This document shows positions 4,681-51,042 of a stretch of 51,323 nt of DNA, in pieces. This DNA comes from a virus. How positions within the stretch are numbered: position 1 is the first letter of the stretch; each line of letters begins with the position of its first letter. The stretch covers positions 1 to 51,323 of IMG/VR virus record IMGVR_UViG_3300044834_000101; one strand, written 5' to 3'. The position numbers were made by a program, and so were the translations under genes. The notes under the pieces were generated by a model. It did no database searches. It was not told where the DNA came from and worked only from the letters and a program-made list of their open reading frames with translations.

Positions 4681-4747
4681 GGGACACCTCCACTTGGGGT
4701 TTGGGCCCAGGTCGCGCATGGCGGCGCGCGGCCGGGGATTTGCGTGT

Positions 4748-34696: not shown

Positions 34697-35100
34697 TAGA
34701 GCACCATGTCGCGGGAGAACCAGGCGGACGGGGCGAACTGGCCGCGTGGGCGGGTGCTCTGCAGGTCGCGCGGCGAGTCGAGCTCGGTGGACCCGTCCTT
34801 GAGGCCCTTCAGCGTGTCCATCCACAGCTTCCACGCCGCGTCGCGGTGTGGCGACGCCTCGGCGGACCGTTCCGCCCACGCATACCCGCCGAGCGAGTTC
34901 GCCGCCCGCAGAAACTCGATCGCGGAGGTGGCGGTCGTCGGGATCGGGACCACATAGGCGCGGCCGCGCAACGCGGCTTCGATCTCGCCGGCGGTGTCGA
35001 CCAGGAACCTCGTGACGTCGTCCGTCGACGGTTTGGTCTGGGGGGTGAAGCGGCGGGCGCTGTTGCGCGCCTCCACGTCAGCGATCGTCGCGTACGCCAT
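34696..35100 (-). CDS. Head-tail connector protein, 134 aa
   Basis: It starts MAYATIADVEARNSARRFTP. Helical, with FLVDTAGEIEAALRGRAYVV, the pattern of gp6-like head-tail adaptors (short helical protein starting [MA]YAtv.Dv). First gene after the modification cassette; its GATAGTC element is 6 nt upstream. Confidence 0.75.
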   Translation of the reverse strand: MAYATIADVEARNSARRFTPQTKPSTDDVTRFLVDTAGEIEAALRGRAYVVPIPTTATSAIEFLRAANSLGGYAWAERSAEASPHRDAAWKLWMDTLKGLKDGSTELDSPRDLQSTRPRGQFAPSAWFSRDMVL

Positions 35101-35106
35101 GGGTCG

Positions 35107-35113
35107 GACTATC
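35107..35113 (-). promoter_or_regulatory. GATAGTC late-start element (head-tail connector)
   Basis: It ends 6 nt before the ATG, the shortest spacing. It lies in the 22-nt gap after the modification cassette. Confidence 0.6.
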
Positions 35114-35122
35114 GGCGCGGGG

Positions 35123-35368
35123 TCATCCCTGCGGCCCCTTCAACCCGAGCACGATCTTCGCCTTGATCGTCGGCGACACGGGCGGCGCGCCGCTGCTCGA
35201 GAACATCCTCGCCATCCGCTCCGCGGTCGCGTGGTCGAACGGCTCGGGGCAAACGTGGATCGCCATCTGGCCGCAGAGGCCGCCCTCGCACGGGCCGGTA
35301 CCGAAGGCGCATGAGTGGCAGCTCATGTTTCCCTCGAACAGGCACATCTCGCAGCGCTCGCAGTTCAC
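35123..35368 (-). CDS. Cys-rich 81-aa protein at the end of the modification cassette
   Basis: The GTG start at 35366-35368 overlaps the methyltransferase stop (GTGA). It begins MNCERCEMCLFEGNMSCHSC and has eight cysteines within the first 40 residues (positions 3, 6, 9, 17, 20, 27, 32 and 39), then a non-Cys helical tail. This may be a metal/iron-sulfur binding protein or a substrate of the neighbouring radical SAM and transferase enzymes. No leader-peptide motif is obvious. Confidence 0.6.
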   Translation of the reverse strand: MNCERCEMCLFEGNMSCHSCAFGTGPCEGGLCGQMAIHVCPEPFDHATAERMARMFSSSGAPPVSPTIKAKIVLGLKGPQG

Positions 35369-36207
35369 CCCGGCGCGACCTCGGCGACCATCACCCGGTC
35401 CTCGCCGCGGTGGACGCGTTCCACCGTCCCGACGGTCGAGCACAGCTCGCGTAGGTCCTCTTCGCGCAGCGCGCGGACGTGCCCCTTGGGTTCTACGTGC
35501 GCCCAGTTCGGCAGATTGCCGCCCTCGACGGCCCCGTCGGGCGTCGACACGAACATCCATCCGTCGTCGGCGACCGCCCACCGCATCGTCTGCAGCAGCA
35601 GCGACGCGTCCGGGACATGCTCGATCAGCTCGAACGCCACAACGGCCTGGTAGCCGCGGCGAGGGGGGCTGAAGCCGCACGCGTCCCTCTGGAGGACCCG
35701 GCCGATCGGCGCCCCGGCGCTCCTGCGTGCCTTCGCGCCGGCGATGTTGTCCGGGTGCAGGTCGACGCAATCGACCTCGATCGCCTCGCCGTACGCGAGG
35801 CCGAGATGTGCGGCCATCCAGCCATCGTTTGCGCCCAAGTCGAGGATCCGCAGCGGCTTCTCGGCGTCGGGCCACAGCTCGGCGATGCGCTGCTTGAGAT
35901 AGGCCACGCGCGGCAGCGTGTCGGCCTGCTCGACGGTCAGGCCGTACTGCTGCTCGAACGGCCGCTCGTGGACGTTCGTGGCGTAGTAGGCGGCGTACTG
36001 GTCGGGCTTGAGGATGTGCAGCACCATCGCCCGCTGGTCGCGCCGCGCCGCCACAATCTCGGGGTGGTCGCGCACGAAGTACGGGACCGCGCTGTCGAGC
36101 AGATGCCAGGCGGCGAGGTTCTCGTCGTGGCGCACCAGGTCCTCACGCAGCTCGAGGATGCGGCGCACCACCTCCCGCTCGTACAGGGACCGGCCGATGT
36201 CGCTCAC
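35365..36207 (-). CDS. Class I SAM-dependent methyltransferase, 280 aa
   Basis: The GTG start (MSDIGRSLYEREVVRRILEL) overlaps the upstream stop. An N-terminal helical segment (HPEIVAARRDQRAMVLHILK, then PDQYAAYY) is followed by a Rossmann methyltransferase: RILDLGANDGW (motif I), VDCVDLHPDN (motif II), AVVAFELIEHVPD, MFVSTPDG. The same segment-plus-domain arrangement is split between two other cassette proteins (see findings). Substrate unknown; a glycan or virion-protein residue is plausible. Confidence 0.85.
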   Translation of the reverse strand: MSDIGRSLYEREVVRRILELREDLVRHDENLAAWHLLDSAVPYFVRDHPEIVAARRDQRAMVLHILKPDQYAAYYATNVHERPFEQQYGLTVEQADTLPRVAYLKQRIAELWPDAEKPLRILDLGANDGWMAAHLGLAYGEAIEVDCVDLHPDNIAGAKARRSAGAPIGRVLQRDACGFSPPRRGYQAVVAFELIEHVPDASLLLQTMRWAVADDGWMFVSTPDGAVEGGNLPNWAHVEPKGHVRALREEDLRELCSTVGTVERVHRGEDRVMVAEVAPG

Positions 36208-36431
36208 CGGCCCACCACCACCGCAGGTTCGCCCCCCTCTGGGTACTCGTCTCTCCAGTCGTCCTCGTCGTCCCACGGGCCTGCCCAGAAGCTGTACTCC
36301 CCCTCCGAGAGCCGAACGACCCGCTTCGTCTCGACATCCGGCTCGCGGTAGCCGTGCTCGTAGCCGTCAACGAGCACGAGCATCTCGGGGTCGTGCTTCT
36401 GCAGCTCCTCGATCAGCTCGCGGACCTTCAC
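36204..36431 (-). CDS. Small conserved-looking protein, 75 aa
   Basis: It starts MKVRELIEELQKHDPEMLVL (GTG, GTGA overlaps at both ends). The MKVxELIexLqkhDPd..VlVDGYEhGY...V pattern is a widespread small family in bacteria and phages with no known function. The acidic middle (GPWDDEDDWRDEYPEGG) is typical. Confidence 0.65.
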   Translation of the reverse strand: MKVRELIEELQKHDPEMLVLVDGYEHGYREPDVETKRVVRLSEGEYSFWAGPWDDEDDWRDEYPEGGEPAVVVGR

Positions 36432-37219
36432 GGGATCACCATGTGGCAGCCTTCGCAGCCTTGGCGCTTGCCCTCCCACGGCTGCACGGCCCAGGTGCCG
36501 GGCGCGTCGTCGACGTGGCCGATCGCGCCGGCGCCCTCGGCGTCGAGACAGCACGTCGTGACGTTGCCGTCGGCGAGCACGACGCACCACCCGGCGCGCA
36601 GGTATTCGCAGGTGACGGACTGCTCTGGGATCGAGACGGACCAGTCGAGCGCGCCGGCCCAGTCGAACGCGTCGTCGACGAACGAGGCGTTCTTGCCCCA
36701 CAACAGCCCGGCGGCGCCGAGACGGTCGACCGCGATCTTCGCCTTCTCGGGCCGGTGCAGCGACACCCAGATGTTGAGCCGATAGGGCCGGATCGCCTCG
36801 ATCAGCGCTTCGCCGCACAGCAGCCCGTCGCGGCGTTCGTCCTGGGCGAAGATCAGCCCGTTCGTGGACATCGTGATCGGGTTCGTCGGCAGCGCCTCCC
36901 TCGCGATGCGGACCAGGTCGACGAACTCGGGGTGGATGGTGGCTTCGCCGATGCCGGTGAGGGCGAGCTCGTGCTGGGTGCCCTTCGACTCGTAGTGGAC
37001 GGCGTGCGCGATCGCCCGCTCGAAGTTCGCGCTGGTGATGTCGACCTTGTCGCGGCCGAAGCCGCCGCCCTCGGCCAAGGGCAGGACACGCACCCCGTCG
37101 GGGGTTTCGACCTCGATCGGCCGGTCGAGCACCCTCGAGGGGCAGTAGACGCAGGTCAGGTTGCACCGCGACGTCACCTCGATCTGGTGGACGGACGTGA
37201 CGGGACGGGGGTAGCTCAC
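36428..37219 (-). CDS. Radical SAM protein with SPASM-like C-terminus
   Basis: A 263-aa protein. VTSRCNLTCVYCPS (Cys19, Cys23, Cys26) is the radical SAM 4Fe-4S motif, and GIGEATIHPEF the GGE-like SAM-binding segment. The C-terminal CEYLRAGWCVVLADGNVTTC, then CLD...CEGCH, is a SPASM/twitch auxiliary-cluster region. Relatives modify peptides or sugars. It is encoded between two methyltransferase-containing proteins and is translationally coupled on both sides. The substrate cannot be deduced. Confidence 0.9.
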   Translation of the reverse strand: MSYPRPVTSVHQIEVTSRCNLTCVYCPSRVLDRPIEVETPDGVRVLPLAEGGGFGRDKVDITSANFERAIAHAVHYESKGTQHELALTGIGEATIHPEFVDLVRIAREALPTNPITMSTNGLIFAQDERRDGLLCGEALIEAIRPYRLNIWVSLHRPEKAKIAVDRLGAAGLLWGKNASFVDDAFDWAGALDWSVSIPEQSVTCEYLRAGWCVVLADGNVTTCCLDAEGAGAIGHVDDAPGTWAVQPWEGKRQGCEGCHMVIP

Positions 37220-37644
37220 GCGACCTCCTGGCTGTGGCGTCTCTTGCCGTGGCCCTGCTGCGCAGGCCGCGGCAGCCGTGCCGCCCAGTGGGCGGCACGC
37301 GCGGCGAGCAGGATCAGCTCGGACCGCAGCGCGGAGCGGTCGCGGTGGCGGTTCGCGTCGGCGATCGCGTCGAGGTTCACCCGCAGCTGCGGCAACCGGG
37401 CGCCGTGGTCCATCTCCAGCAGCTCACGTTCGATGTCGCAAACGGCCGCCTCAGCGCCGGAAGCGTCGGGCGGGAGCGCCATCGACGCCGCCTTGTCGGC
37501 CCGGACGGTCTTGTCACGCACCCGCTGACGCTCCCTCGCCCGGAACGCCGCCTGTTGGCAGGAGGGCTCGTGGTACTTCTGTGCGGGCGTTTCCGGGGTG
37601 AAGGGGGTTCCGCAGCCCGGATTGGCGCAGAAGCGCTGGTGCAT
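37216..37644 (-). CDS. Zinc-finger-like protein, 142 aa
   Basis: It starts MHQRFCANPGCGTPFTPETP; C-x4-C...H-x3-C (CANPGC ... YHEPSCQ) resembles the small zinc finger of phage proteins with CxxCg..F.....K.YCS..C. The rest is helical and basic. Function unknown; coupled to the radical SAM gene. Confidence 0.6.
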   Translation of the reverse strand: MHQRFCANPGCGTPFTPETPAQKYHEPSCQQAAFRARERQRVRDKTVRADKAASMALPPDASGAEAAVCDIERELLEMDHGARLPQLRVNLDAIADANRHRDRSALRSELILLAARAAHWAARLPRPAQQGHGKRRHSQEVA

Positions 37645-37647
37645 CGC

Positions 37648-39210
37648 CTATGGGGCCTTCACGTCGGGGGTGGCGAGCAGCTCCGTCACCTGGCGGGCGA
37701 CCCCGTCCCAGCCGAGGTCGGCGACCGCCTGCGGGCCCTGCTCGGCCGCCTCGCGCTGCAACGTCTCGCTGGTGAGGGCGTCCACCAGCGCGGCGGCGAA
37801 CCGTTCGCGCCACGCCTCGGCAGGCTCGTCGTCGAGCCTGTCCACGAGAATCCCCGGGTCGCGCACCGTTTCCGGCAGCGCCCCCCACGCCGACGCGACG
37901 ATCGCGCAGCCGGCGGCCTGCGCCTCGAGCGCCGCGATACAGGACGTTTCGTTGAACGGGATGTCGGCGGGGGTGCACCACGACGGGTGCGTCCACACCA
38001 TCGACTCGGCCAGCAGCTTCGCCAGGTCGGGCTGCGAAAGCGACCCGAGCCGTTCGACCCCGTCGCAGTTCTTCTCCAGCTCGCGGCACCGGGCGCGGTG
38101 TTCGCCGATGCGGGGGTTCTGGTCGGCGACGACCTCGTAGAACGGCGAGGAGCAGTACGCGAGCTCGGCGTCGGGGACCTGTTCCCGCACCCGGGGCCAC
38201 AGCTCGAGCAGGATGTCCAGCCCGCGGTCTGGCGACGACGTGTAGACGACGCGGCGGCGGCGTTCGCCGGCGTCCTCGTCGAAGCGGCGGAGGTCGATGC
38301 CGTTGCGGATCCGGGCCACCTTGCCGTTCAGGAACGGGTAGAGGTCGGCGACGTGCTGTTCGTGCCAGCCGGACAGCGTCAGCACCGCGTCGATGCGGTC
38401 GGCGCGGGCGGGGGTGAGGCGGTCGCCGCAGTCGGTGTCGTGCAGCCACAGCAGCCGGCGGTCGCAGTTGAGCGGCCAGTCGAACACCTCCGGCAGCCGC
38501 GACGCGATCACGGCGTGCCGCTCGACGGTGGGGTCGAAGACCGCGACGTTGCGGAACACGACGTCGCGGAAGCAGCCCTCCTCCACGTCGCCGTAGACGG
38601 TCACGACGTGGCCGAGTTCGGACAGTGCGTTAGCGAGCCGCACCGCCGCGGTTTCGGAGCCGCCGAGGCCGCGAGTGACGATGTCGATCGGTGACCACTG
38701 GATGAACGACCGGCCCGTGTAGATGGCGATCTCGCCCTTGCGGTCGGCGGGGCGGTAGGTGGCGGCCGCGATGCCGTCGCCGCCGACGACGAGGTCGTCG
38801 AGGTGGCCGCGTCGGCGGAGCGTGTCGGCGAGGTCGATCGCTCGCAGCGCCCGGAGGTGGTGCGGGTTGCGGCCAGCGCCGAAGGTGCCGTCGGGGGTCG
38901 AGACGAACACCCGGCCGCCGGGCTTCAGCATCCGTTCGGCCGCGGCGAGCAGCTGATCGACGTCGGGGACGTGTTCGATCAGCTCGTACATCACCACCGC
39001 GTCGTACGAGCCGGCTTCGAGGTGGTGTTCGATGTCCTCGGCGCGGCCTTCGACGACCTTGCGGTAGCCGCGGCGCCGTGCCTGGGCGGACGCCTCGGGG
39101 TGGAGTTCTACCCCGTCAAGCACCAGCTCGCCGTCGAAGCGTTCCCGCAGCCACGCGCCTACATAACCGTCGTGGCAGCCGAGGTCCAAAATGCGCAGCG
39201 GTTCAGCCAA
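37648..39210 (-). CDS. Methyltransferase-glycosyltransferase (GT-B) fusion, 520 aa
   Basis: It starts MAEPLRILDLGCHDGYVGAW. Residues 1-170 are a Rossmann methyltransferase (LDLGCHDG, VELHPEAS, YELIEHVPD, VFVSTPDG). From about 180, IAIYTGRSFIQWSPIDIVTR then GLGGSETAAVRLANALSELG begins a glycogen-synthase-like GT-B domain; the C-terminal half contains GIDLRRF, VYTSSPDRGLDILLELW and SCIAALEAQAAGCAIVAS, the GT4-like donor-binding region. It transfers sugars from an activated donor, perhaps methylating them too. Acceptor unknown. Confidence 0.9.
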   Translation of the reverse strand: MAEPLRILDLGCHDGYVGAWLRERFDGELVLDGVELHPEASAQARRRGYRKVVEGRAEDIEHHLEAGSYDAVVMYELIEHVPDVDQLLAAAERMLKPGGRVFVSTPDGTFGAGRNPHHLRALRAIDLADTLRRRGHLDDLVVGGDGIAAATYRPADRKGEIAIYTGRSFIQWSPIDIVTRGLGGSETAAVRLANALSELGHVVTVYGDVEEGCFRDVVFRNVAVFDPTVERHAVIASRLPEVFDWPLNCDRRLLWLHDTDCGDRLTPARADRIDAVLTLSGWHEQHVADLYPFLNGKVARIRNGIDLRRFDEDAGERRRRVVYTSSPDRGLDILLELWPRVREQVPDAELAYCSSPFYEVVADQNPRIGEHRARCRELEKNCDGVERLGSLSQPDLAKLLAESMVWTHPSWCTPADIPFNETSCIAALEAQAAGCAIVASAWGALPETVRDPGILVDRLDDEPAEAWRERFAAALVDALTSETLQREAAEQGPQAVADLGWDGVARQVTELLATPDVKAP

Positions 39211-39448
39211 CCCCCGCTACCTCGCAGTCGCCGGCGAGAACCTCGACCTGGACGGTGCCTGCCTGGCCGGGCTTTCCCTTCACCTGGAAGGCGGTCCAGG
39301 GCAGGTGACAGATCGGCTCGCCGTCGACCTTGACGACGATGCGGGCGTTCTCGCCGAAGAACGGCCGCCCCCGTTCGGGCTTGCTCTCGATGTGCAGCAC
39401 CCCGCGCGGCAGCGTGTCGTCCAGCAGCGTCTCGTTGTGGTCCTCCAT
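39203..39448 (-). CDS. Hypothetical protein, 81 aa
   Basis: The start ATG 39446-39448 (MEDHNETLLDDTLPRGVLHI) is preceded by GGAGGTG; a GTG three codons upstream is possible. Small beta-rich protein (GENARIVVKVDGEPICHLPW, GTVQVEVLAGD). Part of a run of small genes separating the two glycosyltransferase genes. Confidence 0.5.
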   Translation of the reverse strand: MEDHNETLLDDTLPRGVLHIESKPERGRPFFGENARIVVKVDGEPICHLPWTAFQVKGKPGQAGTVQVEVLAGDCEVAGVG

Positions 39449-39450
39449 CG

Positions 39451-39612
39451 TCACCACCTCCTTCGTGCCTTGACGAACAACCGCAGCAGCTTGATCGGGC
39501 CGCTCGCCGTGACGTGCGTCGACCGTTCGCCTTGGCGGCCAGCCGCGAACAGCTCCCAGATCCAGGTGCCGTCGTCCGTGCGCGAGCAGCTGAGCGCCCA
39601 GTTCGGCATCAT
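39451..39612 (-). CDS. Hypothetical protein, 53 aa
   Basis: It starts MMPNWALSCSRTDDGTWIWE, with ATGA coupling to the upstream gene. Beta-rich, ending LLRLFVKARRRW. Unknown function. Confidence 0.5.
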   Translation of the reverse strand: MMPNWALSCSRTDDGTWIWELFAAGRQGERSTHVTASGPIKLLRLFVKARRRW

Positions 39613-39977
39613 GCGACCGTCGCCCCCGACGCCGGCGTCCACACGTCCCTGGGCGGCACTTCGACGCCCATGCCTTCCATCCGTTCGCGGCGGTCGGCGT
39701 CGGCGGCCTCTTCGGCGATCTGGCGGCGCAGGCTGCGCGGCAGCTTCGCCAGCGACTTCGGCGCCGGGGAGGGGACGTACGCCTGCAGGACGGGGTTCCA
39801 GATCCGCATCACTTCGACGCGGCCTCGGAACACTCGGACCATGTAGGCGCCATAGCGGAAGAACCGGGCGCCGTCGTGTGCCGCGACGACACCGCCGACG
39901 GGGTGGCGGCCGCGGCGTTCGTTGCGCGCCGCGCGCTTGCGGCGATCGGCGGCGCTGAGTTTCTGGTGGCGTCTCAT
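39609..39977 (-). CDS. Hypothetical basic protein, 122 aa
   Basis: It starts MRRHQKLSAADRRKRAARNE (ATG overlapping the mini-ORF stop). A strongly basic N-terminus is followed by FFRYGAYMVRVFRGRVEVMR. It may bind nucleic acid or a phosphoglycan. Not recognised. Confidence 0.5.
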   Translation of the reverse strand: MRRHQKLSAADRRKRAARNERRGRHPVGGVVAAHDGARFFRYGAYMVRVFRGRVEVMRIWNPVLQAYVPSPAPKSLAKLPRSLRRQIAEEAADADRRERMEGMGVEVPPRDVWTPASGATVA

Positions 39978-40033
39978 CGGAACCCTGCGGGGGAGCCCTT
40001 CGAGTCGCGGGCGTCGCGGATCTGGTCGGTCAC
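39974..40033 (-). CDS. Possible 19-aa mini-protein
   Basis: A 60-nt ORF (GTG start; MTDQIRDARDSKGSPAGFR) joined by 4-nt overlaps to the genes on both sides, the same coupling as the surrounding genes. It may be translated, or only keep ribosomes moving. Confidence 0.35.
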   Translation of the reverse strand: MTDQIRDARDSKGSPAGFR

Positions 40034-40350
40034 TCGGACTCCTCCGGGATGCGGGTGACCTGCCACGCCTCGGTCGTGCCGGGCGGGCTGTAGAACGGCC
40101 TCATCGCCTTGGTGATCTTGTTGCCAGCCAGGTAGCCAGCGAGGCGGAACGACGCGGCCTTCCCGACCTTCTTCACGACGACCTCGATTCCGCCGGCGCG
40201 GACGGCCTGGCCGAGCTTCAGCTTCGACCGATGCTTGCCACGCAGGTCGTCGCGTGCCTTGTCGGCCGCCTTCTTTTCCTCGCGCGCCTTCTCGCAACGG
40301 TCCTCGGCCTCGGCCAGCTCGAGGGCCTGCTTGGCGGTCAGCCGGCTCAC
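40030..40350 (-). CDS. Hypothetical coiled-coil protein, 106 aa
   Basis: GTG start (MSRLTAKQALELAEAEDRCE). Residues 1-45 form a coiled coil (AREEKKAADKARDDLRGKHR), then a beta-rich part ending WQVTRIPEESE. This arrangement resembles small phage proteins of unknown role. Confidence 0.5.
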   Translation of the reverse strand: MSRLTAKQALELAEAEDRCEKAREEKKAADKARDDLRGKHRSKLKLGQAVRAGGIEVVVKKVGKAASFRLAGYLAGNKITKAMRPFYSPPGTTEAWQVTRIPEESE

Positions 40351-40709
40351 AGGCTTCCCCCCGATCGGCCCGACGGCGTACGCCGCCTCGTCGCCGCTTG
40401 CGCGATGGCCTTGAGCTTCGTGTCGACGTTCGTGTCGACGATCCGTATGACGACCTGCAGATCAGGGGACGAAAACCCCTCGCTGGGCGCCCGGACGTGG
40501 TCGAGCACCCCCGCGGACAGCTGCTCGGCTGTGCGGGCGCCCCGGCGTTCGTAGCGGCGCTGCAGCCGCTCCATCCGGTCGGTGCGAAGGTCGTGGCGGG
40601 CGAGCCTCGCCGCGTCGCGCCGCGGAACGCCGTACAGCCGCCAGGCGCGGTAGTAGGTGCGGAACGAGCCGATCCGCGCGACCTGGCGCGCCGGCGAGGT
40701 CGCCATCAC
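40347..40709 (-). CDS. Hypothetical basic protein, 120 aa
   Basis: Starts at GTG 40707-40709 or the ATG directly after it (MATSPARQVARIGSFRTYYR). Helical, rich in Arg and Tyr (RMERLQRRYERRGARTAEQL). The GTGA overlap with the glycosyltransferase gene indicates co-translation. Function unknown. Confidence 0.5.
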   Translation of the reverse strand: MMATSPARQVARIGSFRTYYRAWRLYGVPRRDAARLARHDLRTDRMERLQRRYERRGARTAEQLSAGVLDHVRAPSEGFSSPDLQVVIRIVDTNVDTKLKAIAQAATRRRTPSGRSGGSL

Positions 40710-42115
40710 GCAGCCTCCTTCATTTCAGTCAGGTGCTCGAGCAGGAACGCGCACCGCGGCAGCACGTCGCCGACCGCAACCGGGTCGGCGACCATGTCCT
40801 CCGGCTTCGTCCCGCCCGTCACGTAGTGCGACGAGTAGCCATCCGGGTCGAGCAGCGGGTCGAGCCGCGAGGCGAGTTCGACGCGTAGCTGCACCACCCG
40901 CGGATGGTCCTGCGCGTAATGAGGGACGTTGCTCAAAACGGCGGCAGCCTTCAGCTGCTCGTCGTGGGCGATCAGCCCGTCGGCGAGCTTCACCACCAGC
41001 TCAGCCGTTTCTTCGCGCTTGAGGTCGCCGCGCCACAGCCTGTATGGCGCCGCGAGCATCGCGTGGCCAGGCACCATCCGGAACACCTCGTCCGCCAGCT
41101 GGCACGCCGCGCGCAGGTCGCCCATCTGCGCGAGCGCGCCGGCGAGAATGACCCGCGGCTTCACGACGTAGTCCGTCGGGTCGATGATCAGGATCGTGTC
41201 CGGCACGCCGCGACGGATCACGTCGCGCGCCCACTCGGCCGCCTTCTGCGGCTCGTTCAGCTCGTAGTGGCACTCCGCCAACGTCAGGTAGCTGTCCGGC
41301 CACGACGGCAGCAGCCGCACCGCCTCGAGGGCGGTGTCGATCGCCTGGTCGGTGCGGCCGACCTCCCGCAACGCGAGCGCGTAGCGGCGGTGGACCTGGG
41401 CGCGCTCCTCATCCCAGCCCGTCTTCAGCTTGAGGTAGCGGCGAAACCACCGCAGCGCATGCTTGGCACGGCCACGCGCCAGCTCCTCGAACCCGAGGTA
41501 GCCGAGCACCCGGGCGTTCTCGGCCTCTTCGACGATCCACTTCCGCAGGATGCGGAGGTTGCGCTGCCCGTCGCCGCCGGGCTGCTTGCGGTGGACCCAC
41601 TCGACAGCGGCCGGGTCGATCATCGAGATGGGCCCGTCGATCAGCTGCGCTTCGTGGACGCGACCCACCCAGCGGCCATGGCCGGCACGCACGAGCCGTT
41701 CGCGACGGAGGCGGCAGATGCAGTTGCCGTGAGGGTCCTGGGCGTAGTCGTAGTCGGCGACCCACGCCACCAGCTCCGGCGGTGACTGCTCGGCGAGACG
41801 GCGCAGCTGGTGGGCGCCACGGATCTCGTCGTCGCAGTCCGCCCAGCAGTACCAGTCGCAGCCGGCTAGCAGGGCGTCGGCGAAGTTGCGGGCGGCGGCG
41901 AAGTCGTCGATCCAGTCGAACCGCTGCACCGTGTACGAGCCGAGGCGGCCGGCGCGGACCTGGGCCTGCGCCCACGTCTCGAAAACCTTGACGGTGTCGT
42001 CGCTGGAGCCGGTGTCGGCGAGCGCGACACGGTCGAACGCGCCTTCGACGGTGGCGAGCAGCCGCGGCAGCGTTTCCGCCTCGTCCTTCGCGATCAGCGC
42101 CAGCCCGACCCTCAC
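40706..42115 (-). CDS. Family-2 glycosyltransferase with TPR-like C-terminal half
   Basis: A 469-aa protein, GTG start (MRVGLALIAKDEAETLPRLL). GT-A motifs: IAKDEAETL, VALADTGSSDDTVKV, WCWADCDDE-like metal-binding acidic cluster (WYCWADCDDEI), and YVHRKQ-like motif (EWVHRKQPGG). From about residue 195 helical repeats (VLGYLGFEELARGRAKHALR, RYALALREVGRTDQAIDTAL) form a TPR-like region, as in SunS-type and many phage GT2 proteins. The last about 60 residues match the N-terminal segment of the 280-aa methyltransferase. Confidence 0.9.
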   Translation of the reverse strand: MRVGLALIAKDEAETLPRLLATVEGAFDRVALADTGSSDDTVKVFETWAQAQVRAGRLGSYTVQRFDWIDDFAAARNFADALLAGCDWYCWADCDDEIRGAHQLRRLAEQSPPELVAWVADYDYAQDPHGNCICRLRRERLVRAGHGRWVGRVHEAQLIDGPISMIDPAAVEWVHRKQPGGDGQRNLRILRKWIVEEAENARVLGYLGFEELARGRAKHALRWFRRYLKLKTGWDEERAQVHRRYALALREVGRTDQAIDTALEAVRLLPSWPDSYLTLAECHYELNEPQKAAEWARDVIRRGVPDTILIIDPTDYVVKPRVILAGALAQMGDLRAACQLADEVFRMVPGHAMLAAPYRLWRGDLKREETAELVVKLADGLIAHDEQLKAAAVLSNVPHYAQDHPRVVQLRVELASRLDPLLDPDGYSSHYVTGGTKPEDMVADPVAVGDVLPRCAFLLEHLTEMKEAA

Positions 42116-42336
42116 TCGAGATCGCCACCGGACACCATCACGGCGACCAGCGCCGCCCGGGCGGCCATCGCACCGATCGCTTCGGCGTGACGCACCCCCG
42201 CGGCGACCATCGCGACGTAGTACGAGGCGAGCGCCTCGTCCACCTCAGCCGTGGCGGCAACCACCTCCGGGTCCGACAGGGCGGCGGCGGCCTGGTCGAG
42301 GCGAGCGAGCAGCGCGGGGTCGGCGTGCGCGCTCAC
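42112..42336 (-). CDS. Hypothetical helical protein, 74 aa
   Basis: The GTG start (MSAHADPALLARLDQAAAAL) overlaps the XRE stop; the end overlaps the glycosyltransferase start. All-helical, Ala-rich. Unknown function. Confidence 0.5.
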   Translation of the reverse strand: MSAHADPALLARLDQAAAALSDPEVVAATAEVDEALASYYVAMVAAGVRHAEAIGAMAARAALVAVMVSGGDLE

Positions 42337-42530
42337 CACACATCCTCCGGGGCGGACTGCAGCGCCGCGGCGATCCGCTCCTGCGTCTCGATGGGCGGCT
42401 TGTAGCCCGACTCGCACATCGACACCAGCGAAACCGAGCATCCCGCGGCCGTCGCCACGTCCTGCTGGCGCAGCTTCAGCGCCTTGCGGCGCTGGCGCAG
42501 CGGGCTGTCGCGCTCCTGGGTAGCACCCAT
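42333..42530 (-). CDS. XRE-family regulator heading the modification cassette, 65 aa
   Basis: It starts MGATQERDSPLRQRRKALKL; residues about 13-60 are a canonical XRE HTH (LRQQDVATAAGCSVSLVSMC ... ESGYKP). First gene of the 7.4-kb cassette, 7 nt after a GATAGTC element, with a perfect palindrome (TTCTGAAA/TTTCAGAA) just upstream. It may autoregulate the cassette. Confidence 0.85.
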   Translation of the reverse strand: MGATQERDSPLRQRRKALKLRQQDVATAAGCSVSLVSMCESGYKPPIETQERIAAALQSAPEDVW

Positions 42531-42537
42531 CGGGCGG

Positions 42538-42544
42538 GACTATC
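42538..42544 (-). promoter_or_regulatory. GATAGTC late-start element (modification cassette)
   Basis: It ends 7 nt before the XRE gene ATG and lies downstream of a strong terminator, so it must provide, or lie close to, a new transcription start. Confidence 0.7.
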
Positions 42545-42553
42545 GGACGCCGC

Positions 42554-42569: not shown

Positions 42570-42685
42570 CTCTGCGCCCGCTGGTATCCCGCGGGTATAC
42601 CGGCGCCGGCCGCAAACGGCTCTAGCAAGCGGCGCGGGCGTCGCCGCCGTATACCGGCGGAATCCCGGCGGGATCCCGTAAAGGA

Positions 42686-42715
42686 CACCGGGCCGGCGCG
42701 AACGCCGGCCCGGTG
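42686..42715 (-). terminator. Strong terminator with a UUCG tetraloop
   Basis: CACCGGGCCGGCG and CGCCGGCCCGGTG form a perfect 13-bp stem; the minus-strand loop is TTCG, followed by TCCTTTAC. It closes the capsid/SAP-like gene transcript. Confidence 0.8.
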
Positions 42716-42791
42716 CCGAGGGGGAGGGACGGACGCCCTATTGAGAGCCCGCCTCATGGGAGAGGTTGGGCGTCCGGGTTCTCGCCCCTGC

Positions 42792-43396: not shown

Positions 43397-44356
43397 TCAG
43401 CTCAGAACGTCGGTGAGCACGAAGCCGGCGTCGGGCGCGACGACCTTTTCGTCAACCCGTTCCAGCTCCCGGATCATCTCGCGGTCCGGGTCGATCTCGC
43501 GCCACCGGGTCACGGTACGCGGCGTCTGCTCGAGGCTGTACGCCACCGTCGGCTGGCCCCACTGGGCGCCGTTGTTGACGTAGAGCAGCCGGACGTCGTC
43601 GCCCCAAATCTCGGTCAGCGACCCGGAGTTGCCTTCCTTGGTGGTGGTCGTCTGCCCCTTGGGGATGATGACCTCCATGCCGTGCAGCACGGCGGGAAGC
43701 AGCCGGTCGCCGAGGCGGATCATCGAGTCGCCGGACCCGCCCTGGATCTCGTAGCTGATGATCTGGCGGATGTCCTCCTGGACAGCCATCGCGTACGCGA
43801 CCTTGTAGGGGATCACGATCACGTTCGGGTCGAGCCCGATCGCGTCGTACACCGCGAGCTTGCCGGTCTTGAGGTTGTCCTCGATGGTGGCGGTCGCCTG
43901 GTCCCAGTTGACCGACGGGGCGGTCGACGCGCCTGCGGCGAGCTGGCCGCCGAGGCCGGACGGGAGCAGCAGCTGCGCGACGCGCACCTCGCGCGACAGG
44001 TTCATCTGCTGCGCGAGGAACTCGGCCTTCGTCTGGCGGAGACGCAGCTCCGACTCGGCCTGCTCGACCTCGAGGTCGGTCAGGCTCGTCTTGAGCTTGT
44101 ACTCCTCGCAGAGGTAGGTGTCGAGCGACCACTCGTAGTCGACCTCGCGCGAGGGTGCGCGGTCCGACCCCTTGTTGTCCGTCTGCTGGGCGAACCAGTA
44201 GTTGCGGTCGAAGATGGGGTACTGCCCGGAAAGCTTCGTGACCTTGATCGACGGCAGCACCCGGTCGGCGATGAACCCTTCGCTCTTGTAGCGGCGGGCG
44301 ACCGTCGACAGGAACGGGTCGATGACCTGGAGGGCGCGTGCGCGGTTAGCAGGCAT
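43397..44356 (-). CDS. Major capsid protein
   Basis: A 319-aa protein starting MPANRARALQVIDPFLSTVA. RYKSEGFIADRVLPSIKVTK, QYPIFDRNYWFAQ and the later WGDDVRLLYVN ... PTVAYSLEQTP fit the HK97-type major capsid proteins of actinobacterial and Mu-like phages. Position between decoration and SAP-like proteins is as expected. GAGGG precedes the ATG, so it is translated from the upstream transcript and not from its own GATAGTC element. Confidence 0.8.
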   Translation of the reverse strand: MPANRARALQVIDPFLSTVARRYKSEGFIADRVLPSIKVTKLSGQYPIFDRNYWFAQQTDNKGSDRAPSREVDYEWSLDTYLCEEYKLKTSLTDLEVEQAESELRLRQTKAEFLAQQMNLSREVRVAQLLLPSGLGGQLAAGASTAPSVNWDQATATIEDNLKTGKLAVYDAIGLDPNVIVIPYKVAYAMAVQEDIRQIISYEIQGGSGDSMIRLGDRLLPAVLHGMEVIIPKGQTTTTKEGNSGSLTEIWGDDVRLLYVNNGAQWGQPTVAYSLEQTPRTVTRWREIDPDREMIRELERVDEKVVAPDAGFVLTDVLS

Positions 44357-44367
44357 AGCTCAGGCCC

Positions 44368-44766
44368 TCAGATCAGGTTGGACAGCTGTCGGGGGCTGAC
44401 GAGGATCGAGAAGCGCTCCCCGACGGCGGCGGCCTCGAGGGCCTTGCCGGTGCGCCAGCGAGTCACGCCGGACGCGCCCGCGACCGGGGCGAGCGCCCCG
44501 TTCGAGGAGGCGACGCCGACATCGGCGCCGGGGCCGAGAGAGGCGCCCGCGATCGCCTTGACGATGTTGTCCTGGGCGTAGACGGTCACGTTGCCGTCGA
44601 TCGCCTGGGCGGTGTCCACGACGCCGTACGGCTCGACGCCGTTGGTTGCGATCGGCGCGACCTTCGCCTCGGCGACGGTGCCGATCAGCGCGACGACGTT
44701 CTGGGGCGCGACCACCGACGCGACGCGGCGGGAGTCGATGAAGCCCTTGTGGTCGACGTAGGCCAT
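44368..44766 (-). CDS. Capsid decoration protein (DUF2190-like), 132 aa
   Basis: It starts MAYVDHKGFIDSRRVASVVA. A small beta-rich repeat pattern (VVALIGTVAEAKVAPIATNG, VTVYAQDNIVKAIAGASLGP, GADVGVASSNG) with Gly/Ala turns matches DUF2190/cement-type proteins, which are encoded between protease/scaffold and major capsid genes. The ATG overlaps the protease stop by 1 nt. Confidence 0.75.
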   Translation of the reverse strand: MAYVDHKGFIDSRRVASVVAPQNVVALIGTVAEAKVAPIATNGVEPYGVVDTAQAIDGNVTVYAQDNIVKAIAGASLGPGADVGVASSNGALAPVAGASGVTRWRTGKALEAAAVGERFSILVSPRQLSNLI

Positions 44767-45323
44767 CAGATCCGCCCGTTCGCCATCGAGACGTAGACGT
44801 CGGCGTAGTCGGCGCCCTCGTGGGCGGCGCAGTAAGCCTCGGCGCGCTCGTGGAGGGCCAGCGAGTCGCGGTCGATCTCGGAGTCGCGTTCGCCCGTGCT
44901 GAAGTCGGAGGTGGCGGCCTTGGCCGCCTGGTGGCCGGACGCGCCTAGCGCGGCGGTCGAAACCAGCGGCGGAAGCTCGTCGAGGGCGGCGAGGCAGCCC
45001 GTCTGGTCGGCGTCGTAGTAGCGCTTGTAGTGCGTCTCCATCGCCGGGGCGGCGCGGCCCTGGCGGATGGCGCGGTCGAACGCGGACGCGAAGGTGAGTT
45101 CCTTCAGCTCCTTGACGGCGATGTCGCCGGCGTCGGCACGGTCCTGCAGCGAGAGCGCCTCGGCGCGCGACATGATCGTGTCGCCCTCCGGGGTCTCTAC
45201 GACGCCGCGGAGCGTCTTCGGCTGAACGGCCTGCTCGGCGGCGGCGACGATCGCGTCGAGGTCGGCGCCTTCGTCCAGCTCGAGCGCCTTGGCGATCCTG
45301 GTGAGTTCGTTCGTCTCGGCCAT
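44766..45323 (-). CDS. Scaffold protein from an internal start (nested in the protease gene)
   Basis: Within the protease frame, the ATG 45321-45323 (MAETNELTRIAKALELDEGA) follows a GATAGTC element by 8 nt. It would yield a 185-aa protein equal to the C-terminal scaffold-like domain. Nested scaffolds are known in lambda (C/Nu3) and in Mu (gpI/gpZ). The same 31 nt occur upstream of another genuine gene, supporting use of this start. Confidence 0.65.
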   Translation of the reverse strand: MAETNELTRIAKALELDEGADLDAIVAAAEQAVQPKTLRGVVETPEGDTIMSRAEALSLQDRADAGDIAVKELKELTFASAFDRAIRQGRAAPAMETHYKRYYDADQTGCLAALDELPPLVSTAALGASGHQAAKAATSDFSTGERDSEIDRDSLALHERAEAYCAAHEGADYADVYVSMANGRI

Positions 45324-46256
45324 GCGAGCGCGACTATCGGACGCCGGATCGAGTTCCTCGGGCTTCTCTTGCGAGGCGGCTGCCCAGCCCTCCGGAAGCA
45401 GGTCTTCGCACTTCAGGTCCTTGGCGCGGGCGACCAGGTGGGCCTTCAGGTCGTCGCCGTCTGTGTAGGCGTCGACGGCGGCCTGCAGCTGGTCCTTGTC
45501 GTCGATCGTGGGGAGGTCTGGCGCCTTCAGGAACGGTTCGGTGACCTGGAGGTCGCCGGGGCGGTTCGCGTTGGCCTGGGCGGCAGCGAGCTGCGCGTCG
45601 GCCAGCTCACGCGTAGCCTGCGCCTGCGCGAGCATCTTCTCGTTGAGGTGCGCCAGCTGGTGGGCGTTGAGCGGCACCTCGTCCGGCGCCAGCAGCGCGG
45701 GGACGGCGTCGTCGTCCTCCGGCGGTTCGTCGTCCACCTCGACGGCGAGCTCGCCCGCCGCGGACGCGTACTGCGTCGACAGCGACAGCGCCGGCCAGGG
45801 GAAGAACGGACGGTTCGTCAGCCCGGCGCCGATCAGTTTCGGCCCGACCTTGGTGCCGGTTTCGTCCTGGCCGGCGAGGTTCCAGGTGGGGCTGATGAAC
45901 AGGTAGCGCTTCTTGCGGATCGCGTCGGCGCCGAGGTCAGTCCACTCGACGTCGGCCTTCAGCTCGTCGCCCTCGACGTGCAGGTCGGTGATCCAGCCCG
46001 CCGCGATCGTGGAGCCGCCCTCTTCGGGCGCGTGGTCGAAGTCGATCGCCACGCGCCCGCGCGCGCGGAAGTTCGCGATGAAGCCCTCCAGGACTTCCTT
46101 CGTGATGTTCCAGCGGCCGAAGCGGGGATGCTTGAACCGCCCGACGCGGAACAGCGTGATCCTCGACTTGGGGTCGTCGCCGCCGTCGGCGGCGGCCGCG
46201 AGCTCGGGAAGATCGGCGAGACAGACGAAGTTGTCGTGAGAGTCCGTGTCGGACAT
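44766..46256 (-). CDS. Mu-like prohead protease-scaffold protein
   Basis: A 496-aa protein. The N-terminal about 200 residues match the Mu gpI-type protease: RFGRWNITKEVLEGFIANFR, VAIDFDHAPEEGG, AAGWITDLHVEGDELKADVE and KRYLFISPTW, with Asp-His in DFDH as probable active-site region. The linker is acidic and Pro/Asp-rich, followed by coiled coil (AHLNEKMLAQAQATRELADA) and a C-terminal helical scaffold part. It cleaves itself and the scaffold during head maturation. A GATAGTC element is 7 nt before the ATG. Confidence 0.85.
   Translation of the reverse strand: MSDTDSHDNFVCLADLPELAAAADGGDDPKSRITLFRVGRFKHPRFGRWNITKEVLEGFIANFRARGRVAIDFDHAPEEGGSTIAAGWITDLHVEGDELKADVEWTDLGADAIRKKRYLFISPTWNLAGQDETGTKVGPKLIGAGLTNRPFFPWPALSLSTQYASAAGELAVEVDDEPPEDDDAVPALLAPDEVPLNAHQLAHLNEKMLAQAQATRELADAQLAAAQANANRPGDLQVTEPFLKAPDLPTIDDKDQLQAAVDAYTDGDDLKAHLVARAKDLKCEDLLPEGWAAASQEKPEELDPASDSRARMAETNELTRIAKALELDEGADLDAIVAAAEQAVQPKTLRGVVETPEGDTIMSRAEALSLQDRADAGDIAVKELKELTFASAFDRAIRQGRAAPAMETHYKRYYDADQTGCLAALDELPPLVSTAALGASGHQAAKAATSDFSTGERDSEIDRDSLALHERAEAYCAAHEGADYADVYVSMANGRI
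45314..45344 (-). repeat. 31-nt exact repeat with 33664-33694 (copy 2)
   Basis: Identical to the start region of the 133-aa head-tail gene, but here inside the protease reading frame, at the internal scaffold start. Confidence 0.85.
45332..45338 (-). promoter_or_regulatory. GATAGTC late-start element inside the protease gene
   Basis: It ends 8 nt before the internal ATG and is itself in coding sequence; no stop codon intervenes. Confidence 0.65.
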
Positions 46257-46263
46257 CCCGCGC

Positions 46264-46270
46264 GACTATC
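46264..46270 (-). promoter_or_regulatory. GATAGTC late-start element (protease)
   Basis: It ends 7 nt before the protease ATG in a 31-nt gap. No Shine-Dalgarno. Confidence 0.65.
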
Positions 46271-47736: not shown

Positions 47737-50700
47737 TCAGTCCCCCTTCGCCTTCTCGATGAACTGCTCCAGCGCGGCCGGGTCGTAGACCGTGGGCTGG
47801 CCCCCAGGAGCGCGCTCGTAGATCAGCCGCGGTTTCGGGCCGGACGTGTCCCAGACACGCACCTGGTCGATCCAGTCGGCAGCGTCGACATCCCGGAATC
47901 GGGCGGACACCGCGGCGTGGGTGTGCCGCAGATATGACTCCGGGACGGCACGACCGGCGTCGCGGCCAGACGTGCCCTTGGCGCGCCGCTGCGCCCGTTC
48001 GAGCGCCACGTCGACCGGGACGGTCGCGTAGTCGACCTTGACGCTGTAGCCGGCGGCGTGGAACGCCCGCAGCTTACCGACGAACTTGCCCTCGCCGGAG
48101 TTGCCGACCGTGTCGAGCAGGGCGTTGAAGCGGCGCGCCGCTACCTCGCCGGCGAGCAGCTTGGACAGGTGGGACGACTCCTCGTGCACCGCCGCCGCCG
48201 CGTATGGGTCGCCGATGTCGCGCAGCTTGCGGTACTCCGGCAGCTGCTCCTTGATCGCGTCCGGGTTGATCTCGACATGGTCGGACGGCACGTCGGCGTG
48301 GCCGCCGTCCACCAGCGTCGACTTCCCCGACGCCGGGCCGCCCGCCATCGCGGACAGCACCGGTTTGTCCTGCGGCTCGTGGCCCTCGAGCAGGCCACGG
48401 AGGATGCGTTCGTGGACGCGCTGGCGGGCCTTCGTCCACTGCGGGTTGCCGGCCGCGTCGAGTTTCGGGCTGCCGTCGGCGTCGCGTTCGACATGGCGCT
48501 CCACCGTCTCGCTGTGGCCGCCCAACACGTCGCGGCCGGCGCGCGTCGGGCCGAGGTGCACCTGCTCCGTTTCGGACACCGACAGCTGCTCGAGCGCGCG
48601 GCCGAGCGCCCGGCGCGACGGTCCCGGCAGCCCCGCCTCGCCCGACGCCGCGTCCTTGCCCTTGAAGCGTCCCGGGCCGGGCCCGGACGGCCCCCACGGC
48701 GTGCCCTTCTTCCACCGGTCGCGGTCGTCGGCGAGGTTGACCTCGCCGCGCAACTGGAAGAACTCCATGCATCGGCACCTCGACCCGCCCTTGCAGGCCG
48801 GGTTCGGCGGGATTCGGGCGACGCGGACCGGGTCGTCCAACGGGCGCAGCACGTCGTCGTCGGCCGTCTTGCATTCCACGCAGCGGTTCTTGTCGAGGAT
48901 CGACGTGTACCGCGACCCGTCGATCATGGTTGCGTTCGCGTCGGCCTCGTCGCGCCGGCCGGTGTTCAGCACGGGGATGGCGTGCGAGTCGGCCTCGGCC
49001 TTCAACGCAGCGTCGGCTTCGCGCTCCGCGGCGGCCTGCAGCACAGCCAGGTCGCTGTGGCCGGAGAGCCACAGTTTCGCGACGGCCTCGTGTACGCGCG
49101 TGACGACCATGTATGCCGCCAAGGCCGCCCGGGCGGCGATCTCGCCCCCCTCCTTCAACGCGGCGGGGTCGTCGTCGGCGGCCTGGTAGGGGTGGAGGGG
49201 GGCGGCGGCGGGCTGCGCCTGGCGGCCGAGCTCGTCGCGGACGCAGTCGCGGCCGAACTCGTACAGGTCGACCAGCACCTCCCGGATCGCGGCAGCCAGT
49301 TCGTCCGACGGCTTCGGCGGCTTGGGTACACCGCGGCCGCCGGCCTTCCTCGCGATGGCGCGGGCGTCGGTGAGCGCTTCGTCGCCGGCGACGTTGATCA
49401 TCTGGGCGCGCGCCTCGTCGATCGTGTTTTCGATCGCGTCGAGCGCCATGAGCGCCTCCCACGACCGCAACGGACGGTCCGAGTCGGGAACGGCATCGGC
49501 CGCCTCGACCACGTCGGCGGCGGTGACCGGCTTGCCGTTCCCGTTCTTGCGGTCCTGCTCCTCGAACCCGAGCCGCTTTTCGGCATGCCGGATGTCGGTC
49601 TGCGTCTTGCGGATCCCGGTCTTCGTCTGGTCGACGCCCGCCTTGCTCTGGTCGACGCCGACCTTCTGCTGCTCCGCCCCGGCCTTCTCGGCCTCGAGCG
49701 CCGTCTTGGCCTGCTCCTGCGCCACCTCTTTCTGCTCGCGTGCCTGCGCGCGCGCGGCCGGGTCTGCCGGCGGCAGGTCGGCCTTGTCGCGCAGAAAGTC
49801 CTCGAGCGGCTCGTCCGGCACCATCACGCCCTTCTCGACGAGGCCGGAGACGAACTCCTTCAGCTCCACCAGGGAGGTGGAGTCGGCCTTCTCCATCGAC
49901 AGCTTCGGCGCCCCGTCGGCGTCGTCGAAGTTGAACGCGATCAGCTGGCCGATCAGCCTGTTCAGCTGCTCCTCGAAGACGCCGGCGATCGCCTCGACAC
50001 CGGCGTAGAACGGGTCCTGTTGAACGTCGGCGGTCGCGCGGGCGCCGACCTCCTTCTGGCCGAGCCGCATGAACTCCGCCACGACCGCGGCGGAGATTTG
50101 GTCGCGGAACAGCTCGATCGCGGGCATGCCGTCCGCGCCGCCGGAGTCGCCGCCAAACCCGACCAGCTCGAACTTCCATCCCTGGGCGGCGTCGGTGCCG
50201 AGGTGTTCGGCGGCGGGGCCGGGCATGATCAGGTAGCCGAGCTCGCCGCCGCGGATCGCGGCGAGCTTCTCTTCCATCGCGTCGAGGACCGTGGGGTCCG
50301 ACGCGACCGACGACGGCGGGTACACGACCGGCAGCCCCGTCGCTTCGCGTTCCATCCGGACGGCGAGGAGCCGCTCGAGCTTGTCCTTGATCCACCACGG
50401 CTTGTAGGCGGCGCGCAGCAGCGACTGGCCTTCCCAGTTGTCGCCCTCGGCGCCGAGGCGGTAGTAGAGAAGCCGGTCGGCCGGGATGATGACGAGGCCG
50501 CCGTTGCCGGGCTCGATCGACGGCAGGAACTGCTCGATGCCGGTCAGCTCGTTGTACTCGTCCTGGAACCACCGCTGGATCGTGCGCGGCAACCGCACAT
50601 CCAACTTACGAAGCGTAAGTACCTGGCGGCCTTCGTATTCCTCCGCCATCCACAACGTTTCGAACGGCGTGAACGCGAGGCGGGTGACCATCGGGATCGC

Positions 50701-51042
50701 CTCGGCGAGGTGCTGCGGCAACGCGGGGCTCATGCACTCCCACAGCGCCCACTTCACGAACTCCAGCTGCTCGAGCGCCTTCGCGTCGGCGTCCTCGCCG
50801 CCGTACGGTTCGAGCGTCCAGGTGCCGCCGACGATCGGGTTGTAGACCATCGCGTGGGCGCGCTTGACGTCGGGGTCGGTGCGCGCCATGTCGTCGTAGG
50901 TGCGCGTCGACTGCGGGTGCTGCAGGTCGGGGTTGAACTCCTCGTACTCGAGGTGGCCCTGCGTGTGGGCGCGGCCGACGCCTCCGCGTGGCTTGCCGAG
51001 CGAGGGCGGCGGCTGCTTGCGCCACCGGTCGAGCAGGCCCAT
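47737..51042 (-). CDS. Portal-MuF-zeta kinase fusion protein, 1101 aa
   Basis: GGAGGT precedes the ATG. Residues 1-430 resemble DUF935/Mu gp29-like portals (PQSTRTYDDMARTDPDVKRA, VGGTWTLEPYGG, ADRLLYYRLGAEGDNWEGQS). Residues about 430-510 are a coiled coil with repeats (KVGVDQSKAGVDQTKTGI). A MuF-like part ends at about 760 with DKNRCVECKTAD and CKGGSRCRC. Residues about 885-1095 are zeta-toxin-like: AGGPASGKST Walker A (about 897), EINPDAIKEQLPEY, LLDTVGNSG, GRAVPESYLRHTH. Portal and MuF are usually separate genes; the added kinase resembles the toxin domains found on MuF proteins. It may be delivered with the virion or act in the head. Confidence 0.85.
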   Translation of the reverse strand: MGLLDRWRKQPPPSLGKPRGGVGRAHTQGHLEYEEFNPDLQHPQSTRTYDDMARTDPDVKRAHAMVYNPIVGGTWTLEPYGGEDADAKALEQLEFVKWALWECMSPALPQHLAEAIPMVTRLAFTPFETLWMAEEYEGRQVLTLRKLDVRLPRTIQRWFQDEYNELTGIEQFLPSIEPGNGGLVIIPADRLLYYRLGAEGDNWEGQSLLRAAYKPWWIKDKLERLLAVRMEREATGLPVVYPPSSVASDPTVLDAMEEKLAAIRGGELGYLIMPGPAAEHLGTDAAQGWKFELVGFGGDSGGADGMPAIELFRDQISAAVVAEFMRLGQKEVGARATADVQQDPFYAGVEAIAGVFEEQLNRLIGQLIAFNFDDADGAPKLSMEKADSTSLVELKEFVSGLVEKGVMVPDEPLEDFLRDKADLPPADPAARAQAREQKEVAQEQAKTALEAEKAGAEQQKVGVDQSKAGVDQTKTGIRKTQTDIRHAEKRLGFEEQDRKNGNGKPVTAADVVEAADAVPDSDRPLRSWEALMALDAIENTIDEARAQMINVAGDEALTDARAIARKAGGRGVPKPPKPSDELAAAIREVLVDLYEFGRDCVRDELGRQAQPAAAPLHPYQAADDDPAALKEGGEIAARAALAAYMVVTRVHEAVAKLWLSGHSDLAVLQAAAEREADAALKAEADSHAIPVLNTGRRDEADANATMIDGSRYTSILDKNRCVECKTADDDVLRPLDDPVRVARIPPNPACKGGSRCRCMEFFQLRGEVNLADDRDRWKKGTPWGPSGPGPGRFKGKDAASGEAGLPGPSRRALGRALEQLSVSETEQVHLGPTRAGRDVLGGHSETVERHVERDADGSPKLDAAGNPQWTKARQRVHERILRGLLEGHEPQDKPVLSAMAGGPASGKSTLVDGGHADVPSDHVEINPDAIKEQLPEYRKLRDIGDPYAAAAVHEESSHLSKLLAGEVAARRFNALLDTVGNSGEGKFVGKLRAFHAAGYSVKVDYATVPVDVALERAQRRAKGTSGRDAGRAVPESYLRHTHAAVSARFRDVDAADWIDQVRVWDTSGPKPRLIYERAPGGQPTVYDPAALEQFIEKAKGD

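Follow-up and report, generated by a model that had tools for sequence, protein, structure and literature searches.

The 51,323-base IMG/VR virus record IMGVR_UViG_3300044834_000101, referred to in full as the window, derives from an uncultivated virus of bacteria. Its minus strand carries a late-gene block in the order portal, protease, a small protein in the position of a decoration protein, major capsid protein (MCP), SAP-like gene, an enzyme cassette, head-tail adaptor, tail genes, and tape measure. The cassette, the subject of this work, is composed of 15 minus-strand open reading frames (ORFs) running from 42530 down to 35123; it follows the head genes and precedes the head-tail connector. 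Most ORF junctions are overlaps of 1–8 nt, typically 4 nt (ATGA or GTGA type), and the remainder are gaps of 2–3 nt. The original prediction of about 15 tightly coupled genes with an XRE-type regulator at the head is borne out, and the first ORF matches the XRE helix-turn-helix (HTH) models of Pfam.

Four of the ORFs, all on the minus strand, make up a conserved core: the XRE-type HTH regulator (65 aa, 42333..42530; Pfam HTH_31/HTH_3), a glycosyltransferase (GT) with a GT2 domain, a TPR domain, and a linker (GT2-TPR, 469 aa, 40706..42115), a class I methyltransferase (MT) fused to a GT-B glycosyltransferase (MT-GT-B, 520 aa, TTG start, 37648..39210), and a radical S-adenosylmethionine (radical SAM) enzyme (263 aa, 36428..37219). 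In the two closest relatives, L167 and L168, the order is MCP, start element, XRE, GT2-TPR, MT-GT-B, radical SAM, start element, adaptor, and tail genes, with the XRE homologue in the same place. Identities to the window proteins are 53–54% for GT2-TPR, 55–58% for MT-GT-B, and 58–59% for radical SAM. The second methyltransferase (MT2), the Cys-rich ORF, and most of the small ORFs have no counterpart in L167 and L168. Therefore, the conserved unit consists of four genes, and the self-contained unit of 15 genes proposed earlier is not supported by the nearest relatives. Because XRE is kept with the enzymes in both relatives, it probably tunes the expression of the unit.

Enzymes of the conserved core

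The GT2-TPR protein contains Pfam GT2 and TPR domains (TPR_2, E 4.8e-10). Residues D93, D95, D96, W149, H154, and E155 are invariant in an alignment of 14 sequences, with D93-x-D95-D96 as the acidic donor/metal motif. The structure model (pLDDT 89) has helical repeats in its C-terminal part, and its best fold matches are SunS and ThuS (Foldseek 1e-13; Z 23–24). The superposition on SunS gives Z 24.1 and 2.4 Å over 264 residues at about 16% identity. Profile comparison identifies GmaR (E 8e-33) and SunS (5e-27), and the GT2 teichoic-acid enzymes TarS and RmlT are also among the fold matches. Modelled structure and profiles thus place GT2-TPR with the peptide and protein glycosyltransferases, and the protein is predicted to attach the first sugar onto a protein. 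By hydropathy, no cassette enzyme has a clear transmembrane segment.

The radical SAM enzyme matches Pfam Radical_SAM. It had been labelled a radical SAM/SPASM protein; the first half of the label stands, while the SPASM match is weak and that domain is better described as a twitch-like auxiliary-cluster domain. The three Cys of the CX3CX2C motif (CNLTCVYC) are invariant, as are C204, C223, C255, and C258 (alignment A6), which follow the pattern C-x~18-C ... CX2C. C204 and C223 align with Cys of BtrN, C255 and C258 lie beyond the aligned stretch, and C224 is an extra invariant Cys. From the sequence, this pattern is compatible with one auxiliary [4Fe-4S] cluster. The profile match to BtrN (E 2e-10, about 20% identity) covers 200 of 231 positions and reaches the auxiliary-cluster domain. 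BtrN is also the best Foldseek match (3e-7) and the best fold match (Z 15.6 over 208 residues), followed by anSME and ChlB (Z 14), for a model of moderate quality (pLDDT 72). A scan of cellular genomes for relatives was uninformative, yielding two partial matches at about 30% identity, both to lengthy, unrelated enzymes from uncultivated bacteria.

The MT-GT-B protein (Pfam Methyltransf_11 and GT-B) and GT2-TPR are separated in the window by six small ORFs, in L167 and L168 by just 180–270 nt, and in the relative L115 not at all: a single ORF of 1026 aa holds the equivalents of GT2-TPR and MT-GT-B in order. MT2 (280 aa, 35365..36207, minus strand; Pfam Methyltransf_23) has segments related to both proteins. 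At its N terminus it is homologous to the linker that ends GT2-TPR (35%, E 3e-12), and its methyltransferase part is homologous to that of MT-GT-B (36%, E 5e-20). By these alignments, MT2 is a second copy of the stretch made up of the GT2-TPR linker and the MT-GT-B methyltransferase, which implies a former GT2-TPR-linker-MT-GT-B polypeptide. GT2-TPR and GT-B are fused in many other relatives (750–800 aa), some of the fusions carrying a C-terminal MT (e.g., L037, 956 aa), and the permuted order GT-B-MT-GT2 occurs in L028 and L031. The domain orders across relatives thus vary among GT2-TPR-GT-B(-MT), GT-B-MT-GT2, and GT2-TPR-MT-GT-B.

Association with capsid genes in other phages

The window MCP (43397..44356, minus strand; PHROG 1005, E 1.7e-53) is the gene tracked by the enzymes and a candidate acceptor. 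IMG/VR scans with a single window radical SAM, capsid, or MT-GT-B sequence gave no match, and alignment queries alone succeeded. Three such scans were made, from the GT, the capsid, and the radical SAM side; some contigs are redundant or recur in more than one scan, and many are fragments.

The GT scan used fused GT2-TPR-GT-B queries and returned 492 IMG/VR relatives, the best 80 of which were pooled with loci collected earlier. A long GT2-TPR gene is present at 104 loci; at 89 of them the retrieved DNA includes an MCP of the SU10 type or the window type, in every case on the same strand as the GT. The MCP lies just upstream of the GT in 86 loci, and at 3.8 kb in one more, with a gap of mostly 400–500 nt that typically holds one small gene. 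Almost all of these MCPs belong to the SU10 type (PF17236; a representative gives E 1e-69), which has no profile-level match to the window type (hhalign probability 0.2%). In 73 loci, a conserved protein of about 131 aa is encoded between SU10-type MCP and GT; it is zinc-ribbon-like in L037 and L041. Other genes near the GT in relatives encode NDP-sugar epimerase, DegT aminotransferase, GT10, RGP, and LicD. In the Manatee Spring phage L002 (MW202497.1), a GroEL gene (35734–37302) lies between two GT genes in the structural region.

The capsid scan used window-type MCPs as the sole query and found 50 loci, 41 of them usable (at least 1.5 kb of sequence downstream). A GT gene is present on the same strand within 3.5 kb downstream in 36 of the 41, at a median distance of 456 nt. 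The third scan, with radical SAM as the sole query, returned 133 viral relatives and 77 new loci: a GT is found at 50 of the 77 loci, an MCP at 59, both at 45, and any of MCP, GT, or portal at 70. All three scans link the cassette to virion genes in relatives, a point on which the original prediction could have failed. The same set of enzymes turns up beside capsid genes in far more than a hundred further contigs of uncultivated phages, and was not encountered in isolated phages.

Radical SAM genes of the window family are paired in tandem at 37 of the 77 loci (e.g., L156, L160, L161, L162, and L130), which suggests that the two enzymes catalyse related reactions or form a heterodimer. Radical SAM genes of other types occur in 14 of 48 records of SU10-type phages; of these 17 genes, 14 share the strand of the GT and lie no more than 6 kb downstream of it. 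The radical SAM gene at first seemed specific to the window, with a single case in 30 GT records and a distance there of about 18 kb; the 14 records just mentioned and the capsid scan overturned this view.

Boundaries and remaining features

A strong intrinsic-terminator-like hairpin (42684..42717, minus strand) closes the head-gene unit upstream of the cassette. It has a 15-bp stem and a UUCG loop, with a predicted energy of −35.4 kcal/mol (z −6.6), and 0 of 200 shuffles are equally good. The strong terminator claimed earlier is thus confirmed, though its U-tract is short. Directly before XRE is a start-associated element, TCCGATAGTC-N7-ATG (42528..42547, minus strand), of the GATAGTC family; the next element (35098..35113, minus strand) precedes the head-tail connector gene and marks the end of the cassette, so that copies flank the cassette at both ends. 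GATAGTC-N4-9-ATG occurs 12 times in the window (21073–46949; another example is 46254–46270), as compared with 0.09 expected, each copy directly 5′ of a start codon. The element precedes XRE and other homologous genes in L167 and L168, too. It may be a −10-like sequence that yields leaderless messages, or a start-associated sequence comparable to that of cluster K mycobacteriophages. A scan of the sequence for sigma-70 promoters found none. GC content is flat around the cassette (0.69–0.73), which argues against a recent foreign island.

The other cassette ORFs, all on the minus strand, are small. A 74-aa protein without a family match (42112..42336) lies between XRE and GT2-TPR. The six ORFs between GT2-TPR and MT-GT-B encode 119 aa (40347..40706; no homologue detected at this place in L167 and L168), 106 aa (40030..40350) and 122 aa (39609..39977), both without a match in the loci, 19 aa (a mini-ORF, 39974..40033), 53 aa (39451..39612), and 81 aa (39203..39448, the first of two ORFs of this length); the 119-, 106-, and 122-aa ORFs are not conserved. 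Flanking the radical SAM gene are ORFs for a 142-aa protein with an N-terminal zinc-finger-like Cys motif (37216..37644; zf-CGNR, weak, E 0.1) and an acidic 75-aa protein (36204..36431). The last ORF encodes an 81-aa protein with eight Cys (35123..35368), which is not conserved.

Elsewhere in the window, a GATAGTC copy at 45321–45341 precedes an internal ATG within the protease gene (44766–46256), suggesting a possible nested scaffolding protein made from the internal start. A single ORF of 1101 aa (47737–51042) contains the portal (PHROG 113) and a C-terminal region resembling a minor head protein (PHROG 16619), indicating that the two proteins appear to be fused. An 833-aa protein (2218–4719) has a GH5 cellulase-like domain (E 5.5e-13). 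An integrase gene is also present, and the phage is therefore probably temperate.

Proposed pathway, alternatives, and known systems

We propose, with a probability of roughly 0.7, that the conserved core is expressed late and assembles a methylated and oxidised glycan on a protein of the virion, the capsid protein being the likeliest acceptor. That the cassette modifies the virion in one way or another is held with somewhat greater confidence. The proposal is based on gene content, domain homology, fold class, capsid synteny, the L115 fusion, and the origin of MT2, and we infer the acceptor, the sugars, the order of steps, and the chemistry. The methylated glycan on the virion was already part of the original prediction. 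Comparative genomics, through the three scans, lends it strong support, and the protein-type fold and profile matches of GT2-TPR add to this; the 15-gene unit and the Cys-rich product are not supported.

In the proposed pathway, the cassette would be expressed late with the head genes, and a short glycan would be built stepwise. The cytosolic GT2 domain, with the TPR domain holding the acceptor, would transfer the first sugar to a Ser or Thr (or Cys) of a virion protein. The acceptor would most likely be the MCP, the product of the same gene block, since the MCP is the constant neighbour of the enzymes. The GT-B domain would then add one or more sugars, the methyltransferase domain would cap a sugar by methylation, and the BtrN-like radical SAM enzyme would oxidise a sugar hydroxyl to a ketone. 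BtrN is a twitch radical SAM dehydrogenase that oxidises a cyclitol alcohol (PMC9012708), and by analogy a BtrN-like step fits a glycan pathway; we nevertheless consider sugar oxidation a tentative assignment, at a little under even odds. The likely benefit is an altered particle surface that affects adsorption, stability, or recognition. More tentative still is the generalisation to a large set of uncultivated tailed phages, whose capsids would be coated with a glycan that is first methylated and afterwards oxidised by a BtrN-like radical SAM enzyme specific to phages, the module having been assembled repeatedly beside unrelated capsid genes and in permuted domain orders. Radical chemistry would then contribute to the making of virus particles.

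Several points weigh against this reading. Partial redundancy among the contigs, together with an MCP seed taken from phages that carry the GT, means that the frequency of 36 in 41 overstates the rate. Escherichia phage PhiKM and Pseudomonas phage Komp_PAO1_1 have an MCP of the same family with no such enzymes annotated beside it. Capsid synteny could reflect another late acceptor, such as a decoration protein or tail fibre, or mere descent in a few lineages. In addition, the peptide-modifying enzymes anSME and ChlB follow closely behind BtrN (Z 14 as compared with 15.6), in comparisons with a model whose pLDDT is only 72.

The closeness in fold of anSME and ChlB (Z 14.0) bears on a different division of labour, in which the radical SAM enzyme would modify a side chain of a virion protein directly, as SPASM maturases do, and the GTs would act on the virion separately. 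Models of SPASM-type peptide maturases weakly match most members of the family, and the gene adjoins the capsid gene, often in tandem (37 of 77 loci). However, profile comparison, Foldseek, and VIA-align all rank the cyclitol dehydrogenase BtrN at the top, no leader-binding domain is evident in the 263 residues, the conserved Cys suffice for one auxiliary cluster, and the gene travels with GTs and MTs. We regard direct side-chain modification as unlikely. A peptide rather than a virion protein would be the substrate in a glycocin-like pathway, with the SunS-like GT2-TPR and the radical SAM enzyme modifying the 81-aa Cys-rich protein, a product already raised as an alternative in the original prediction. 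SunS and ThuS are indeed the best fold matches of GT2-TPR, and the Cys-rich ORF is last in the operon and translationally coupled. But that protein has no match in phages even at E 1 and no convincing one in the loci of relatives, and no homologue is seen in L167 and L168, which keep the enzymes. Its Cys are N-terminal, without a leader-core layout, no C39 peptidase/transporter or thiol oxidoreductase is among the cassette protein families scanned, and the enzymes of relatives accompany capsid genes, not peptides. As the Cys-rich peptide, the small ORFs, and MT2 are not conserved, a peptide product is weakly founded and very improbable.

Phage GTs often alter the host surface, as in serotype-converting phages. 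The GTs and MT could likewise act on a host polysaccharide or teichoic acid, in superinfection exclusion or serotype conversion, and the probable temperate lifestyle indicated by the integrase, as well as the presence of TarS and RmlT among the fold matches of GT2-TPR, would agree with this. The cassette proteins, however, include no flippase and no protein with a clear membrane segment by hydropathy, and the TPR domain together with the affinity to SunS and GmaR suggests protein acceptors. Moreover, late expression is to be expected, given that many contigs have these genes within the head block, next to the capsid gene. Host-surface modification is accordingly improbable. Glycosylation of modified bases in phage DNA has a precedent in phage GTs (cited in PMC12619734); here, a base hydroxymethylase of the thymidylate-synthase family is absent from the window and present in just 2 of 45 records, and GT2-TPR belongs to the SunS/GmaR class, making DNA hypermodification the least probable of the alternatives, with very little in its favour.

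The usual picture of a phage particle is one of unmodified protein. For many environmental phages, the genomic evidence suggests that glycosylation linked to the capsid forms part of the late gene block, served by a dedicated multi-domain enzyme and, in one large group, a radical SAM enzyme. If so, GT2-TPR, MT, and GT-B beside a capsid gene would be a signature that predicts glycosylated virions from sequence, with bearing on phage adsorption, particle stability, and immune recognition. The cassettes would also be a source of new protein glycosyltransferases and sugar-oxidising radical enzymes.

Searches of an open-access library turned up no account of a cassette in which GT, MT, and radical SAM genes are linked to the MCP. 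Neither the GT-B-MT-GT2 protein nor the radical SAM family has a match in 50,697 named phage records, and the only matches of the GT2-TPR-GT-B fusion in these records are environmental assemblies. Phage-encoded GTs are known to glycosylate the virions of the mycobacteriophages Che8, Corndog, and Myrna (work of Freeman et al. 2023, related in PMC11256854, PMC12363180, and PMC12619734). The glycan is on the capsid (and tail) there and is proposed here. No mycobacteriophage is among the tblastn matches of either window GT (E 1e-3). In Maravista, a related F1 phage, the GT genes are located close to the 3′ end of the genome, whereas the window GTs lie beside the capsid gene, and the parts of the mycobacteriophage literature on which this comparison draws do not report a fused GT2-TPR/MT/GT-B or a linked radical SAM gene.

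The peptide S-glycosyltransferases SunS and ThuS share with GT2-TPR a GT2 fold followed by a helical domain. GT2-TPR differs in having a TPR domain and linker, in being fused or coupled to MT and GT-B, and in its position beside capsid genes; in addition, the window cassette has no glycocin precursor or transporter. GmaR, a GT2-TPR protein that serves as the flagellin O-GlcNAc transferase (PMC9638930), likewise has a GT2 domain followed by a TPR domain, and its target is a self-assembling surface protein. Unlike GmaR, GT2-TPR is encoded by a phage late gene, has no detected antirepressor domain, and is accompanied by an extra MT and GT-B. Serotype-converting Gtr systems use a membrane flippase and a membrane-bound GT, in contrast to the cassette proteins, which lack a clear transmembrane segment by hydropathy. 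The phage radical SAM family differs from BtrN in adjoining capsid genes, often in tandem. Virion glycosylation is thus known, and its capsid-linked version with a radical SAM enzyme appears to be previously undescribed.

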